The notes beneath the pieces were generated by a model, which was not told where the DNA came from, did no database searches, and saw only the letters and a program-made list of their open reading frames with translations. A stretch of 13,844 nucleotides of DNA from a bacterium (GTDB lineage Bacteria; NPL-UPA2; JAGMAN01): positions 1 to 13,844 of the forward strand of contig JAGMAN010000050.1 in assembly GCA_023130215.1 (NCBI GenBank), given 5' to 3'. A program made the translations under genes and the position numbers. This document shows, piece after piece, positions 1-10,864 of this stretch. The first letter of the stretch is position 1. Each line of letters opens with the position of its first letter.

Positions 1-102
1 GGAGATAGTGTTTACTACCGCTCAACCAATTCGCATAAAGCGGTGAACATTGGAAAGAAAAAAGCAGATATACTGTGGGTTATCTTCACTGCCTCGTCAT
101 GA
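1..102 (+). CDS. C-terminal fragment of a cupin-domain protein (5' end outside window)
   Basis: Reading frame 1 is open from the first base to a TGA at 100-102 and gives 33 residues. They begin GDSVYYRSTNSHKAVNIG and end with a hydrophobic strand (ILWVIFTASS). The pattern G-D-[SV]-x-Y, then a histidine about ten residues later, then N-x-G and a final beta strand, is the usual last part of a cupin barrel. It resembles in particular the C-terminal cupin of XRE-type (HTH plus cupin) regulators. The histidine would be the second-motif metal ligand of the barrel. Only the tail is visible, so an N-terminal DNA-binding domain cannot be confirmed and a stand-alone cupin is equally possible. Confidence 0.6.
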   Translation, partial: GDSVYYRSTNSHKAVNIGKKKADILWVIFTASS

Positions 103-152: not shown

Positions 153-261
153 ATCATACTGTGCAACAGCCTGCAAGGAAAATGGGTTGGCATCATCTAC
201 ATACAGGTATAATAGTCGCAAGTTAAGAAATGATGAGGTATGATTGCTATGGTGTTTGCAG

Positions 262-295
<34 letters not shown>

Positions 296-301
296 CTCTA
301 A

Positions 302-447
302 GAAAAGTTTAGCCTTGATGCCTCAGAGGTTATATCAAGGCATCTTTAACCAGGGCCCAGATTTCTTGCGGAGGAAACGCAGAGTTTGGGTTTTTTGCTT
401 TTCCAGGCCTAATAATAAATCTGGATATAGACATTGCAGAAGTGGAG
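302..447 (+). pseudogene. Possible frame-broken 5' part of the sigma-54-like/GIY-YIG gene
   Basis: No single frame is open here, yet protein-like pieces follow one another in different frames and lead into the gene at 434. Frame 1 (about 379-447) ends with FPGLIINLDIDIAEVE just before TAA at 448. Skipping one base there continues directly as KEHARFVGRV in the frame of the downstream gene. Just upstream, frame 2 (362-394) gives FLAEETQSLGF, which would join the frame 1 piece if the T-run at 391-396 had one more T. Frame 0 (348-365) gives NQGPDF. This suggests a longer ancestral N-terminus with several one-base indels, either real decay or assembly error at homopolymers. It is inference: the fragments are short and have not been compared with homologues. 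Confidence 0.35.
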
Positions 448-1612
448 TAAAGAACACGCACGGTTTGTTGGCAGGGTTATCTTTGCCAATTTTCTCAAGC
501 TGCCCCTGGGAAGCTATAAGAATATTATCGAAGAGGTGGAGAGTTCAGCCATTTTTAAGAAATTGTCAAGAGACGGAGGTAATCACGAGGGCAATAATAG
601 CTCTGCAATAATTATAAAACGCCTTTCAAGGTCAGGTATATCTCATGAGAAAACAGGCAGATCGTCTAAGGCAATCGCTGAGATAGTAAAAAGCAATAAG
701 GATTTCAGTGTCAGATATGCATATAACGGGTTTAATAAAATATACAGTATTCGTAGAACTCCACATTTAAAGCTCTTTTACAAATTGAGGCGTATAGGCT
801 CAAGGAATGAGCTTACACACAAAATAATAGAAGGGCTCATTGAACATCAAAAGGAGTTCTTGAGCACAGGGAACCCGGTTGATTTAGTGCCGTTCAGTCA
901 GGTTCAACTTGCTAACTGGCTAAATGGGAATGAATCATCCAAAATACATATTAGCTGGATCTCAAGACTTGTAAATAAGCTTTCAGCAATTGTACCTTCT
1001 GGTGAGGAAAAGATATTAAGGTCGTTCTTTCCAACCCAAAGGGATATAAATAAAAGACTTATAAAACAGCTCCTTGACAAAGAGAATGAGGATATAGAGT
1101 CTGGAAGGTTAAAGAGACCCTTAACAGACAACAAGATAAGGGCTAAGTTAGAAAAAGAATATGGGCTCTCACTTTCCAGATGCACAGTGGGTCATTGCCG
1201 GAAGGATATGGGGATTCCTCCTGCGAAGAGAAGGCTTTCAGGATATAAATATCCGCCTCTTTCAGCGAATTTCTCGATGCTTTATCCTTTGACAATTGAA
1301 TCAGTCCAGAGCAATGCTCCGTCTTGCCCGGGGATTTATGAGTTTCGGCTGAATAGCAGAGAGATAGAGTATCCTGAGGGCAAGACAAATATTGTTTACA
1401 TCGGGAGAACTATGAATATCAATAAGAGGCTAAGAGAACACCTGGGACGGAAGAGCAAGAATCATCATATAAAAGGTTTCCTGAAAAAGGAGAAATGTCT
1501 TTTCAGGTATATTCAGTTTTTGAAGAACTGGAAGGAAGAAGAAGGAAAATTATACGATCTCTTCGTCACAACCTATGGTGCATCACCCTATTGTAACAGG
1601 GTAAGGCCGTAA
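434..1612 (+). CDS. Sigma-54-like DNA-binding region fused to a GIY-YIG nuclease domain
   Basis: The protein has 392 residues. Residues about 128-268 follow the C-terminal half of RpoN. EHQKEFLSTG (137-146) matches the Q-x-x-F-F-x-x-G element. A helix-turn-helix lies at about 156-184, with HISWISRLVNK where sigma-54 has ESTVSRVV. The stretch VPSGEEKILRSFF (187-199) follows. PLTDNKIRAKLEKEYG leads into SRCTVGHCRK (248-257), aligned with the RpoN box ARRTVAKYRE; R249, T251, V252 and R256 are kept. Residues 299-392 form a GIY-YIG domain: GIY (300-302), YIG (322-324), R332, H336, E370 and N388, so the active site looks complete. The glutamine-rich activator-response region I of sigma-54 is absent. 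The start is doubtful: stops lie just upstream (410-418, 428), TTG at 434 has no clear ribosome-binding site, and there is no in-frame ATG before residue 259. The N-terminus may therefore be truncated. Residues 41-59 and 61-81 look like an imperfect repeat (K-x-L-S-R-x-G-x-x-H-E). A nuclease aimed at sigma-54-like promoter DNA is an inference. Confidence 0.75.
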   Translation: MQKWSKEHARFVGRVIFANFLKLPLGSYKNIIEEVESSAIFKKLSRDGGNHEGNNSSAIIIKRLSRSGISHEKTGRSSKAIAEIVKSNKDFSVRYAYNGFNKIYSIRRTPHLKLFYKLRRIGSRNELTHKIIEGLIEHQKEFLSTGNPVDLVPFSQVQLANWLNGNESSKIHISWISRLVNKLSAIVPSGEEKILRSFFPTQRDINKRLIKQLLDKENEDIESGRLKRPLTDNKIRAKLEKEYGLSLSRCTVGHCRKDMGIPPAKRRLSGYKYPPLSANFSMLYPLTIESVQSNAPSCPGIYEFRLNSREIEYPEGKTNIVYIGRTMNINKRLREHLGRKSKNHHIKGFLKKEKCLFRYIQFLKNWKEEEGKLYDLFVTTYGASPYCNRVRP

Positions 1613-1673
1613 TTATCAATATCTTCGTTTAGAGCTGGTAATTGACAAGGGTTAATAAATAGGAGAATTGCCA

Positions 1674-2102
1674 ATGACAAAAACATACACAGGGCAGGAA
1701 AGAAGAAAATATCCCCGTGTGGAAGAAGAATGGGGATTGCTCTACAAGGCTTCCAAAGCCACGGAGATTAAAAGTTCTTCCACAAAGAATATAAGCGGCG
1801 GTGGAATCTGCTTTGAAGCTGAGGGGCACATTTCTCCCGGAGATGTTTTAGAAATTCAGGTTAACAAGCCAATTGGTGGTGGGTTAAAAGCTACGCTACC
1901 CATACATGCTGATGCGAAAGTTATCTGGATAAAGCAAACTGAAACTGGAAAATATAGATTAGGGTTGCAGTTTGTCGATATGAAGGACAAATATCAGAAG
2001 GAAATCATCAGGAATGTGAAAGAGCAGCTTAAAATTAAGGAAGAGAGAAGTAATGGGAATAAACCGGAGGTGCCTTATGTACAGCAAAGAAGAAGAGATT
2101 AA
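1674..2102 (+). CDS. PilZ-domain protein (probable cyclic-di-GMP receptor)
   Basis: This 142-residue soluble protein is essentially one PilZ domain. It carries both binding motifs of the family. The first is RxxxR near the N-terminus (RKYPR, 11-15). The second is [DN]xSxxG in NISGGG (39-44), followed by a beta-barrel pattern up to GLQFVDM at about 97-103. These residues grip cyclic-di-GMP in characterised PilZ proteins, so binding is likely here. A charged helical tail follows (about 104-142). The ATG at 1674 is preferred because AGGAG at 1661-1665 sits eight bases upstream; a TTG at 1668 is too close. Its last 26 bp overlap the HD-GYP gene, so the two are probably co-translated. The output target cannot be read from the sequence. 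Confidence 0.88.
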   Translation: MTKTYTGQERRKYPRVEEEWGLLYKASKATEIKSSSTKNISGGGICFEAEGHISPGDVLEIQVNKPIGGGLKATLPIHADAKVIWIKQTETGKYRLGLQFVDMKDKYQKEIIRNVKEQLKIKEERSNGNKPEVPYVQQRRRD

Positions 2103-3240
2103 GCAACTCAAAAGACAGCTTGAGATAGAGCATACAAAGCTGCAGCATGTTTATAGTATAAGCCGGGAAGCTATAGATATCTTAACTTCACAAAAGGGAG
2201 ACAAGTTAAACTTAATTCTACAGGTAATTGTCAACAAAGCCACAGAGGACCTGGATTCAGAAATTGGCTCTATTCTCCTTTTTGAACCAAAGTCAAATGT
2301 GATGACCATGCATGCGGCTAAAGGCCTGGAAGAAGATATAATTAAAGAAACCCATCTTAAAACAGGCGAGAGGATATCCGGCTGGGTTGCTCAACACAAA
2401 GAAGCCATTTTAGTCCTGGATGTGGAAAAAGACCCCCGCTTTGCCAGGCGCAGCCATGAAAGATACTATACGAAATCTTTAATAAGCGCACCCATTAAAA
2501 TAAACCACAAAGTATTGGGTGTCATCAATGTCAACAATAAACGCAATCGCCAGCCCTATGAGCAGGAAGACCTTGATCTCCTGGAAGCATTAGCGGCTCA
2601 ATCAGCATTAGTGATAAGCAATGTCAATCTTTATAATGAATTACAAGAGTTATATATGAACACAATCGAAGCCCTGACAGAAGCTGTTAATGCCAGGGAC
2701 CATTATACAAAAAGCCATTCTGAACACGTCACTCAATATGCTGTGGCCATTGCTAAAGAGATGGGGCTGTCTAAACATGAGATTGAAGTCGTTGAAAGAG
2801 CAGGCAAGTTACATGATATCGGCAAAATCGGTGTTCATGATTACATACTGACCAAACCAGGCAAATTGACTGAAGAAGAGTGGGAAAACGTAAAGACTCA
2901 TGCTTTGAAGGGAGCAAAGATCTTAGAACCTCTTGGTTTCTTGGATGGTGTTATTGAAGTCGTCAGGCAGCACCACGAAAGATACAACGGGAAGGGCTAT
3001 CCTGACAATAAACAGGCTGGTGAAATTCGCATTGAAGCCAGGATTATGGCTGTGGCTGATGCCTTTGATGCTATGACTACAGAAAGACCTTATGCCAGAG
3101 CTTTAACAAAAGAAGAAGCCATTGGGGAGTTAAAGAAGGAATCGGGAAAACAGTTTGATCCTGAAGTGGTAGAGGCATTCTTAAGGGTTCTGGGGAAGAA
3201 GCATGAATGGGGAATTAAGGCTAAGGGTGAGCAAGACTAG
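2077..3240 (+). CDS. GAF plus HD-GYP domain protein (probable cyclic-di-GMP phosphodiesterase)
   Basis: The 387-residue protein has a short N-terminal coiled-coil-like helix (about 4-25). A GAF sensor domain follows (about 40-183, including TGERISGWVAQHKEAILVLD and LGVINVNNK). The C-terminal HD-GYP domain spans about 195-373. Metal and catalytic motifs are intact: H217, HD at 246-247 in KLHDIGKIG, HHERYNGKGYP at 299-309 with GYP at 307-309, and D328 in the VADAFDAM helix. HD-GYP enzymes hydrolyse cyclic-di-GMP, and the GAF domain should tune this in response to a ligand or partner. There is no membrane segment, so it is cytoplasmic. The ATG at 2077 is chosen because GGAGG (2066-2070) lies six bases upstream, inside the PilZ gene; the ATG at 2053 lacks this. 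Eraser and receptor thus form one unit. Confidence 0.9.
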   Translation: MYSKEEEIKQLKRQLEIEHTKLQHVYSISREAIDILTSQKGDKLNLILQVIVNKATEDLDSEIGSILLFEPKSNVMTMHAAKGLEEDIIKETHLKTGERISGWVAQHKEAILVLDVEKDPRFARRSHERYYTKSLISAPIKINHKVLGVINVNNKRNRQPYEQEDLDLLEALAAQSALVISNVNLYNELQELYMNTIEALTEAVNARDHYTKSHSEHVTQYAVAIAKEMGLSKHEIEVVERAGKLHDIGKIGVHDYILTKPGKLTEEEWENVKTHALKGAKILEPLGFLDGVIEVVRQHHERYNGKGYPDNKQAGEIRIEARIMAVADAFDAMTTERPYARALTKEEAIGELKKESGKQFDPEVVEAFLRVLGKKHEWGIKAKGEQD

Positions 3241-9071: not shown

Positions 9072-10064
9072 CTACTTCTCAACTACCGTCTCCTCGATCT
9101 TTATTCCAAAATGCCTTCCCGGTTCTTCTAAATAGGCTAACACCAGGCTGCCTTTCTTTAAAGCCACCACCGAGATCGGCTTCCCCTCAGGATTAACCAA
9201 TCTTATCGTCTCCGCATTCTGGAGAATGAGGCTGATTCTGCGCTTTTTCACTTTACCTTCTACCAGTAGCAGAGGTCGTCTTTCCACCTTTGCCCTTCCT
9301 ACCACCGCCAACTGAGTTCTACCCTGATGACTAACAATCAAGGTCTCATCTCCTGCTTTAAGCTCAGATAAATATTTAGTCTTTCCTCCCGGCAAAAGGG
9401 TATAGGCATGCACCGGACCAGCATTTACCCGGAAAGGTCTCGGCTCAACATAAGGATTCTCCACACTCTCTGAGTGGATTAAGAACATGGCACTGCTGCT
9501 ATTTCCCACTAACATCCCTTCTCCGATTCTCATGTTGGTGCAGGTATCAATGCAGACCCTATCCCCTAAGCCAAGGGATTTGACCTTAGTTACCTGAGCT
9601 ACTTCCAATTTGAGCTTCTCGGCTACATTCTTCACTGAACTCACCGTCTTCTTAATCTCATTTAGATTAGTCGTCTTTAAAAGGATCCCGTCTACTCCTT
9701 TCTCAAGAGCTCCTAAAGCCGTCTTTGCCTCTCGGCTGCTTCCCACCTCAACGAAGAGACCTTCCGTCTGAGCAATTAAGTTCTCTAAGGGAATTATCTT
9801 CCAGTCTTTCATCTTCAGGATGAGGGTCTTGGATTTACTTAATTTAACGGCTTCCTCTTCATCTTCCTTACCCCTTATCTCAAATTGGATGACATCTTTC
9901 CCCAATTTTATATCTCCGTCTTTGGCTACCGTCTTTATCAAACCTAATTCCCTGACATTCTCTCCATACCCCTCTGCTACAACCAGAGCATCCGCCCCGC
10001 TCTCTAAGGCAGTGATAGCCACCTGCTTGTTCCAGGGAGAGCAGTTAACCCATACCTTCTTCAT
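9072..10064 (-). CDS. 3-dehydroquinate synthase II (archaeal type, MJ1249 family)
   Basis: This family converts 2-amino-3,7-dideoxy-D-threo-hept-6-ulosonate to 3-dehydroquinate by NAD+-dependent oxidative deamination and cyclisation. It replaces the classical AroB, to which it is not related. The 330-residue protein carries the family's hallmark stretch from LVGNSSSAMFL (185-195) through VENPYVEPRPFRVNAGPVHA (201-220). It also has SLGLGDRVCIDTC (163-175) and the N-terminal VWVNCSPWNKQVAITALESG (4-23). The C-terminal beta-rich part includes ELKAGDETLIVSHQGR. Archaeal members are often slightly longer. It starts five bases after the ADH synthase stop, and the two act in consecutive steps, so a shared transcript is almost certain. 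No classical aroB is present in the window. Confidence 0.93.
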   Translation of the reverse strand: MKKVWVNCSPWNKQVAITALESGADALVVAEGYGENVRELGLIKTVAKDGDIKLGKDVIQFEIRGKEDEEEAVKLSKSKTLILKMKDWKIIPLENLIAQTEGLFVEVGSSREAKTALGALEKGVDGILLKTTNLNEIKKTVSSVKNVAEKLKLEVAQVTKVKSLGLGDRVCIDTCTNMRIGEGMLVGNSSSAMFLIHSESVENPYVEPRPFRVNAGPVHAYTLLPGGKTKYLSELKAGDETLIVSHQGRTQLAVVGRAKVERRPLLLVEGKVKKRRISLILQNAETIRLVNPEGKPISVVALKKGSLVLAYLEEPGRHFGIKIEETVVEK

Positions 10065-10069
10065 ATCTC

Positions 10070-10864
10070 TTAGCCCTTCAGTTCCTTCATTGCCTCCTCT
10101 ATGGAGGCCTTCTCATGCACCATCCTTCCAATAGCTCTGATCATGGCAGTAGGGTCTTCGTGCTGGAATGCATTCCGTCCAATGGACACTCCAGCCGCCC
10201 CTGCCTTTAGGGCCCCATCTACCATCTCCAATATATCTTTATCTGTCTCTACCTTCTCACCCCCGGCGATGACCACCGGAACCGGGCAGCCCTCTACCAC
10301 TTCCCGGAAACTCTTAGCGCTTCCAGTGTAGTGGACCTTAACTAAGTCGGCTCCCAATTCTGCTCCCACCCGGGCGGCGTGCTTTATAAATTTAACATCG
10401 AACTCATTCTTGATCTTCTCCCCCCGTGTATACATCATGCTCAGAAGAGGCATTCCCCATTCCTGGCAGGTCCTGGAGATTTCGGCAAGATGCTGAAGCA
10501 TTATCCCATCGGTCTCTGCTCCTAAATTGATATGGATAGAGATAGCATCTGCGCCTAACTTTATGGCTTCCTCCACTGTGCAAACGGGAACCTTGGCATC
10601 GGGGTCAGGGCTCATGGTAGTGCTGCCAGATATATGAATGATCAGTCCCACATCCTTGCCCCTTCCTCGGTGGCCGGACTTTACCAGTCCCTTGTGCACA
10701 ACGATAGCATTGGCTCCTCCATTTACTACCTTATCAATGGTTGTCTTTATATCCTTCAGCCCATCAATTGGCCCCTGGGTTACGCCGTGGTCCATGGGAA
10801 TGATGACTGTCCGACCTGAGTTCCGATCTATTATTCTCTCCATTCTAATGGCTTTACCTACCAT
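10070..10864 (-). CDS. 2-amino-3,7-dideoxy-D-threo-hept-6-ulosonate (ADH) synthase, MJ0400 type
   Basis: This DhnA-type class I aldolase condenses aspartate semialdehyde with 6-deoxy-5-ketofructose 1-phosphate, the non-classical entry to aromatic biosynthesis. The 264-residue TIM-barrel protein has [14 protein letters not shown] (23-36; D25), MMYTRGEK (143-150; Y145) and [11 protein letters not shown] (172-182; K176, the Schiff-base lysine). As I recall the Methanocaldococcus enzyme, its residues D33, Y153 and K184 match these with a constant offset of eight. The C-terminal phosphate-binding pattern is VIAGGEK and [10 protein letters not shown]. Fructose-bisphosphate aldolase of the same fold is the main alternative, but the adjacent dehydroquinate synthase II makes that unlikely. 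AGGAGG lies eight bases before the ATG, the strongest ribosome-binding site in the operon. Confidence 0.92.

Follow-up and report, generated by a model that had tools for sequence, protein, structure and literature searches.

The window analysed here, a stretch of 13,844 nucleotides of a bacterial contig, encodes what is by sequence a sigma-54 DNA-binding domain joined to a GIY-YIG nuclease domain. The gene belongs to a family of sporadic occurrence that lies in signalling operons, frequently splits PAS-domain genes and is accompanied by microsatellites that start directly after a TTGC motif. On balance, the protein is probably a free-standing, site-specific, homing-type GIY-YIG endonuclease with sigma-54-derived targeting that travels together with a PAS target marked by the repeat. 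The domain with which a sigma factor reads promoters would thereby have been reused to aim a nuclease, and this nuclease is tied to microsatellites beginning exactly at a -12-like TTGC in PAS sensor genes. The original prediction knew of no described protein of such architecture, and a published description of a GIY-YIG/sigma-54 fusion, or of the linkage of such a nuclease to repeats or PAS genes, was likewise not found in the open-access literature.

A sigma-54 DNA-binding domain joined to a GIY-YIG domain

The open reading frame at 434-1612 is preceded by an in-frame stop codon at 428-430, and the features of its product and surroundings are listed in Table 1. Pfam matched the protein to Sigma54_DBD (PF04552, E 1.9e-13) over residues 119-267, equivalent to positions 16-158 of the 160 in the profile, and to GIY-YIG (PF01541, E 4.6e-6) over residues 317-368, both above the gathering cut-off. 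The NCBIfam model rpoN_sigma matched residues 120-267 (E 3.8e-13, far under the cut-off for the full-length protein), and a comparison with the PDB aligned RpoN (5ui5) across residues 122-267 (E 5.6e-7). Pfam, NCBIfam and PDB thus agree on the two modules in one protein that had been proposed from the letters of the sequence. The nuclease residues picked out at that time, G300, Y302, Y322, G324, R332, E370 and N388, are present and were invariant when 11 homologues were compared; they include the catalytic Tyr, Arg, Glu and Asn of GIY-YIG enzymes, and the protein is predicted to be catalytically active. An AlphaFold model made with three sequences had a mean pLDDT of 38 and was unusable.

Table 1. 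Positions of the nuclease gene, its parts and its neighbours in the window
Feature	Position	Strand	Remarks
-24/-12-like element TGCTATG-GTGT-TTGCA	245..260	+	directly before the repeat; -24 half 5/7 against TGGCAYG
(AAGC)8.5 microsatellite	262..295	+	sole strong tandem array of the window; 139 bp before the nuclease gene
Sigma-54-DBD / GIY-YIG nuclease gene	434..1612	+	392 aa, TTG start; dN/dS 0.20 against L002
N-terminal helical region, residues 1-45	434..568	+	also found in sigma-54-like proteins without GIY-YIG; may be a remnant of region I
Sigma-54 DNA-binding domain, residues 119-267	788..1234	+	PF04552 E 1.9e-13; PDB 5ui5
RpoN-box equivalent SRCTVGHCRK, residues 248-257	1175..1204	+	alignment to PDB RpoN chains and family alignment
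GIY-YIG catalytic domain	1331..1609	+	Pfam match; catalytic residues invariant in the family
PilZ (c-di-GMP receptor) gene, downstream of the nuclease gene	1668..2102	+	PF07238 E 8e-13
GAF-HD-GYP-type signalling gene, downstream	2053..3240	+	HD_5 E 9.5e-39, GAF E 1.4e-16

The family shares with RpoN the homologous domain consisting of ELH-HTH and RpoN box, and the TTGC at the side of the repeats resembles the -12 element (PMC2725144). In contrast to RpoN, neither the window protein nor any nuclease member tested has a Pfam match to the core-binding domain (Sigma54_CBD), and the activator-interacting region I (AID) had no Pfam match in the nuclease members tested. As the core-binding domain is absent, the window protein is not a sigma factor, and with no recognisable activator-interacting domain either, the family cannot act as a normal one. 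The earlier statement that region I is missing is less than certain: the Pfam profile has no match, but in hhalign the N-terminus of the window protein resembles the region I of true RpoN at a non-significant E of 0.035. The same ~45 residues are related to the N-terminus of sigma-54-like proteins that have no GIY-YIG domain (hhalign 96.6%, E 6e-10). These GIY-less relatives occur in genomes G035, G123 (twice), G345 and G182, have the N-terminal ~40 residues in common with the nucleases and are possibly unusual sigma factors. At loci L033, L034, L035, L091 and L092 they are 365-405 aa long, with a DNA-binding domain, a nuclease-like N-terminus and no Pfam core-binding match, and the one at L091 adjoins PilZ, PAS, NtrC-type and HD-GYP genes.

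The canonical RpoN box is ARRTVTKYRE (PMC2725144). It had been noticed that a cysteine replaces an arginine in the window copy, which is the case, but the change from R to C is confined to this protein; at this position the relatives carry R or H, and across the family the consensus reads S-R-R-x-[IV]. Because only the window copy is changed, the idea that the altered box shifts the target is weak. The question whether the host also has rpoN could be answered: the genome carries a separate full-length rpoN with AID, CBD and DBD, truncated at the C-terminus where its contig stops, together with at least four sigma-54 activators.

Distribution, gene splitting and transfer of the family

The search for homologues with both domains in one protein, which had been recommended, was successful. 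Beside the window, 16 related loci were collected (17 in total), from several phyla and three plasmids. They include the gene of Ca. Euphemobacter frigidus (L002, 53% in the best segment), plasmid homologues from Sulfuricystis, Diaphorobacter and Arcobacter, and homologues in genomes G029, G046, G075, G101, G336 and G368; five further members came from the phylum of G336, and a nuclease fragment was found in a contig from a viral collection (L059). The nuclease is present in 7 of the ~387 genomes searched, the gene is absent from both congeners of the window genome (G000), and a search for further members in the small phyla of G101, G029 and G075 gained little. The family is under purifying selection, with dN/dS values of 0.20 between the window and L002, 0.31 for L038/L039 and 0.42 for L031/L046. 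Copies that are frameshifted or have no RpoN box were seen at L031, L046, L108, L110 and L032. In four nuclease genes a -1 frameshift lies at a run of 8-9 A (L031 8690-8760; L046 4239-4310; L108, minus strand, ~8670; L110, minus strand, ~5390), at two different places, namely between N-terminus and DNA-binding domain and in the linker to the GIY-YIG domain, and may represent programmed slippage, phase variation or decay. The gene of G046 has lost most of its DNA-binding domain; ~1.1 kb downstream of this degenerate copy lies a second fragment of the nuclease C-terminus, 58% identical (L029 5404-5511, minus strand), which indicates a decayed second copy.

At the loci read, the nuclease gene is located within or beside operons with PAS, GAF, histidine kinase, GGDEF/EAL, HD-GYP or chemotaxis genes. 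At ten of them (L031, L032, L046, L059, L090 and L108-L112) it directly precedes an ORF that starts inside a PAS domain, and at those split loci for which the upstream side was also read, the sensor ORF before the nuclease ends within the same PAS domain. The junctions are translationally coupled: those at L032 are ATGA and GTGA overlaps, and at L031 and L046 the terminal GGAGGA codons of the nuclease form the ribosome-binding site for the next ATG. When the two halves at L090 were joined, a PAS_7 match spanning the joint was obtained (E 5e-4, under the Pfam cut-off), and neither half alone matches. All PAS-splitting copies lie on one side of a single branch of the tree (support 69/67).

The gene is horizontally transferred. 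In the clade with split genes, G101 and G368 (different phylum) are nested among members of the G336 phylum, with supports of 96/97 and 99/96. The plasmid loci L038 and L039, which lie in unrelated contexts, have one block of 3.9 kb and 82% identity in common, consisting of the nuclease and EAL genes, and this pair is the only block around the gene that the two plasmids share. Between L111 and L112 the nuclease and the target gene are 85% alike and the likeness stops ~100 bp beyond the target gene. Among G029, G336 and G607, one of the PAS domains with a tract shows 73-78% identity, the nucleases of these genomes being far more diverged. Of the congeneric loci L031 and L046, the latter is without ~1.7 kb of the former (L031 9733-11448 versus L046 5279-5351), one end of the difference being 44 bp downstream of the GAA array; this indel end falls just after the conserved PAS sequence DITERK. 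The tract-bearing plasmid protein at L038 6126-8675 is a protoglobin-PAS-PAS-GGDEF-EAL protein of the oxygen-sensor type.

Microsatellites that begin at TTGC

The unit of the array in the window, GCAA, matches that of arrays beside the plasmid homologues, and 22 arrays of at least 4 units were found in 15 of the 17 loci, all on the strand of the nuclease and at distances from 34 bp to 2.4 kb. They are (GAA)n or (GCAA)n, and almost all of them are found in sensor genes of the nuclease operon that encode PAS domains. Outside PAS domains the unit is GCAA, which applies to the window and to both beta-proteobacterial plasmids, where the array is at the start of the EAL gene that follows the nuclease. 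No arrays were present in control loci amounting to ~204 kb, which comprised relatives lacking GIY-YIG, GIY-only relatives and half of each plasmid, and in the two plasmids (~200 kb) the only arrays with a unit of 3 or 4 are the two at each nuclease locus. The poly-glutamate stretches in the neighbouring PAS genes are encoded by pure GAA codons, even where the host uses GAG about half of the time, and they occupy two distinct positions of the PAS fold.

From six loci, the rule YTTGMR(GAA)7 was framed and then scanned over 386 genomes. It matched in 4 of these (G029, G075, G101 and G368), and every match adjoins the nuclease; the association of tract and nuclease has a Fisher value of 3.8e-8, with physical proximity not counted. 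Six members that were found by protein alone after the rule had been framed served as a held-out test: (GAA)6-12 was seen in G336, G607, G616, G612 and G608, and TTGCAGAAGCA(GAA)4 in G586. There are two exceptions. At the Arcobacter locus (L040) the only array is (ATCTT)4.6, which lies 43 bp before the gene, and in G046, where the nuclease is degenerate, the homologous PAS site is TTTACA(GAA)2, with no tract. This PAS gene of G046 is a partial analogue of an empty allele; a search for an intact nuclease-free allele of a split PAS gene found none. GCAA arrays are also found where there is no nuclease, in ordinary phase-variable loci (G364), and on account of the hsdS-like gene of that genome they were rejected as a nuclease marker of their own, not being specific. 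In the gene concerned, (GCAA)13.5 encodes ASKQ repeats (L093 1469-1522) in a protein that resembles the specificity subunit of type I restriction enzymes, the nuclease being absent.

The arrays start directly after TTGC, or TTGA in G029, and that of the window, with TTGCAGAA, stands just after TTTGC. Most of the TTGC elements are inside coding PAS sequence and outside promoters. Under a null of synonymous codons at the coding sites, the probability of TTG[CA] was 10^-6.2 and that of pure GAA 10^-33, values which treat the loci as independent and are optimistic given their homology. Further upstream, nearly all sites have G at -9 and A at -7, and L030, L038, L039, L111 and L112 have GG-N10-GC or GG-N10-GA. 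This pattern is similar to the sigma-54 consensus, mrNrYTGGCACG-N4-TTGCWNNw (PMC2725144). The sites at the arrays match its -24 half at 4.75 of 7 positions, versus 1.99 for random TTG[CA] sites; with the amino acids fixed in a synonymous-codon control this drops to P 0.03, and therefore the case rests on the TTGC and the tract. A -12-like element at the arrays is supported at the DNA level; the -24 half is suggestive, its match being largely explained by the encoded amino acids.

Among relatives, the lengths of the arrays vary, with 6.5 versus 5.5 units of GCAA and 7 versus 8 of GAA in L038/L039, and 7 versus 6 in L111/L112. At both L038 and L039 the stop codon of the nuclease overlaps an ATG, and within ~14 codons of it (GCAA)n puts the EAL gene out of frame.

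Probable homing and its alternatives

The reading of the protein as a homing endonuclease would bring these features together as follows. The targeting module would be a DNA-binding domain of the ELH-HTH/RpoN-box type that comes from a sigma-54-like protein, and the nuclease would reside in, and move with, PAS signalling operons (histidine kinases, GGDEF/EAL or HD-GYP proteins). It would recognise the -12-like TTGC within PAS genes or next to them, probably in combination with a degenerate -24 half site, and cut nearby. The microsatellite that starts at the TTGC, in frame as (GAA)n in PAS domains or as (GCAA)n outside of them, would then mark the target in nuclease-bearing alleles. Most simply, it would arise when a native GAA-GAA slips as a break near the TTGC is repaired, the expanded allele being kept together with the nuclease, and the repeat may also protect the site by a changed spacing between the positions of binding and cutting. 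We infer the cleavage of DNA and its exact position, the repeats as a result of the cutting, and the homing. Two of the roles suggested in the original prediction agree with the observations. One is a nuclease aimed at -24/-12-like DNA, since TTGC elements stand immediately beside the repeats; the other is a homing-type or mobile element with a borrowed promoter-binding module, since the gene is sporadic, transferred between lineages and splits PAS genes.

Precedents are the Seg enzymes of T4-like phages (SegA-SegG) and MobE (PMC2988022). SegA-SegG likewise combine a GIY-YIG core with a separate DNA-binding part, are free of introns and co-oriented with the host genes, lie hundreds to thousands of bp from the presumed site, and have overlapping start/stop junctions (PMC2988022). 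They differ from the window family, in which cleavage is predicted, in that the latter is found in bacterial chromosomes and plasmids, has a DNA-binding domain derived from sigma-54, and has PAS targets and a microsatellite. The gene of MobE, in nrdA of phage Aeh1, also interrupts a host coding region, leaving it as two adjacent ORFs (PMC2988022), but MobE is an HNH enzyme, whereas the window family is GIY-YIG and the gene that it splits is a PAS sensor.

The main rival of homing is a domesticated device for repeat instability, in which the nuclease would cut the TTGC-anchored repeat and keep it unstable, so that its length tunes a PAS sensor (GAA) or switches a downstream signalling gene (GCAA) as in a contingency locus. 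In a further-reaching form of this account, the sigma-54-derived domain would bring the GIY-YIG nuclease to a TTGC site, where it would both create a microsatellite in neighbouring signalling genes and keep it unstable, a dedicated and locus-specific module acting as a targeted sensor mutator, which we hold to be possible, if rather unlikely. The tracts are all in signalling genes, their lengths vary among relatives (L038/L039, L111/L112), and both plasmids have the classical layout of phase variation, with (GCAA)n near the start of the EAL gene; as in contingency loci, a tetranucleotide repeat is placed just past the start codon, and its copy number shifts the EAL reading frame, a feature seen in L038 and L039. 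However, differences in length between species are no proof of fast switching, and the sporadic occurrence, horizontal movement, gene splitting and degenerate copies look selfish. Ordinary contingency loci, moreover, need no dedicated nuclease, whereas here one is adjacent, trinucleotide tracts are found inside folded PAS domains and the TTGC junction is fixed. Since the tracts are seen only in cis, a simple passenger relationship is possible too, in which the repeats would be ancestral features of PAS cassettes co-travelling with the nuclease and have no mechanistic link to it. The tract of the split-PAS clade could indeed have come with the cassette from one origin, and one tract-bearing PAS domain is as similar between phyla as described above, but tracts are found in several places that are not homologous (two positions of the PAS fold, gene starts, an intergenic region), in two units and always after TTGC, and nuclease-free genomes are without them, which makes such a coincidence improbable.

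Even less probable is a transcription regulator at -24/-12 promoters, or a competitor of RpoN, in which the GIY-YIG domain is merely structural. In its favour are the sigma-54-like DNA-binding domain and the sigma-54 regulon of the host, but the catalytic GIY-YIG residues are all invariant and the TTGC elements are mostly in coding PAS sequence; competition with RpoN, which had been considered at the outset, gained no support from a neighbourhood made up of signalling genes. The least credible reading is that of a defence or anti-plasmid nuclease, also among the early suggestions: a nuclease with a DNA-binding domain that is found on plasmids would suit it, but its neighbours are signalling genes and no defence genes are among them, and the PADLOC match is negligible (fragments at E 0.005-0.03). 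A group I or II intron or an intein was rejected because the flanking frames differ and the junctions leave no room for a ribozyme, and no Rfam match at the gathering threshold was obtained in 115 kb (the window and 7 loci). A phage origin was rejected as well, given that a protein search of viral_contigs gave no relative, phage records matched only rpoN and PHROGs matches were negligible, and so was a transposon, since no inverted or direct repeats of 10 bp were seen at the ends of the shared blocks of L038, L039 and L111. If the nuclease does make the repeats, some simple-sequence repeats, and poly-glutamate insertions in sensor domains, would have a direct origin that can be tested, and selfish endonucleases would be seen to reshape signalling proteins in a new way.

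Two further observations concern other parts of the window. At its very start (1-102, plus strand, frame 1), a terminal peptide resembles the C-terminal end of an XRE-cupin regulator (cf. L091 6038-6592), the gene being cut by the contig end. On the minus strand, positions 9072-10864 encode an archaeal-type early shikimate pathway, namely 3-dehydroquinate synthase II and ADH synthase, and in this bacterial genome these genes form a cluster with those for TyrA, AroA, aspartate kinase and HisC.
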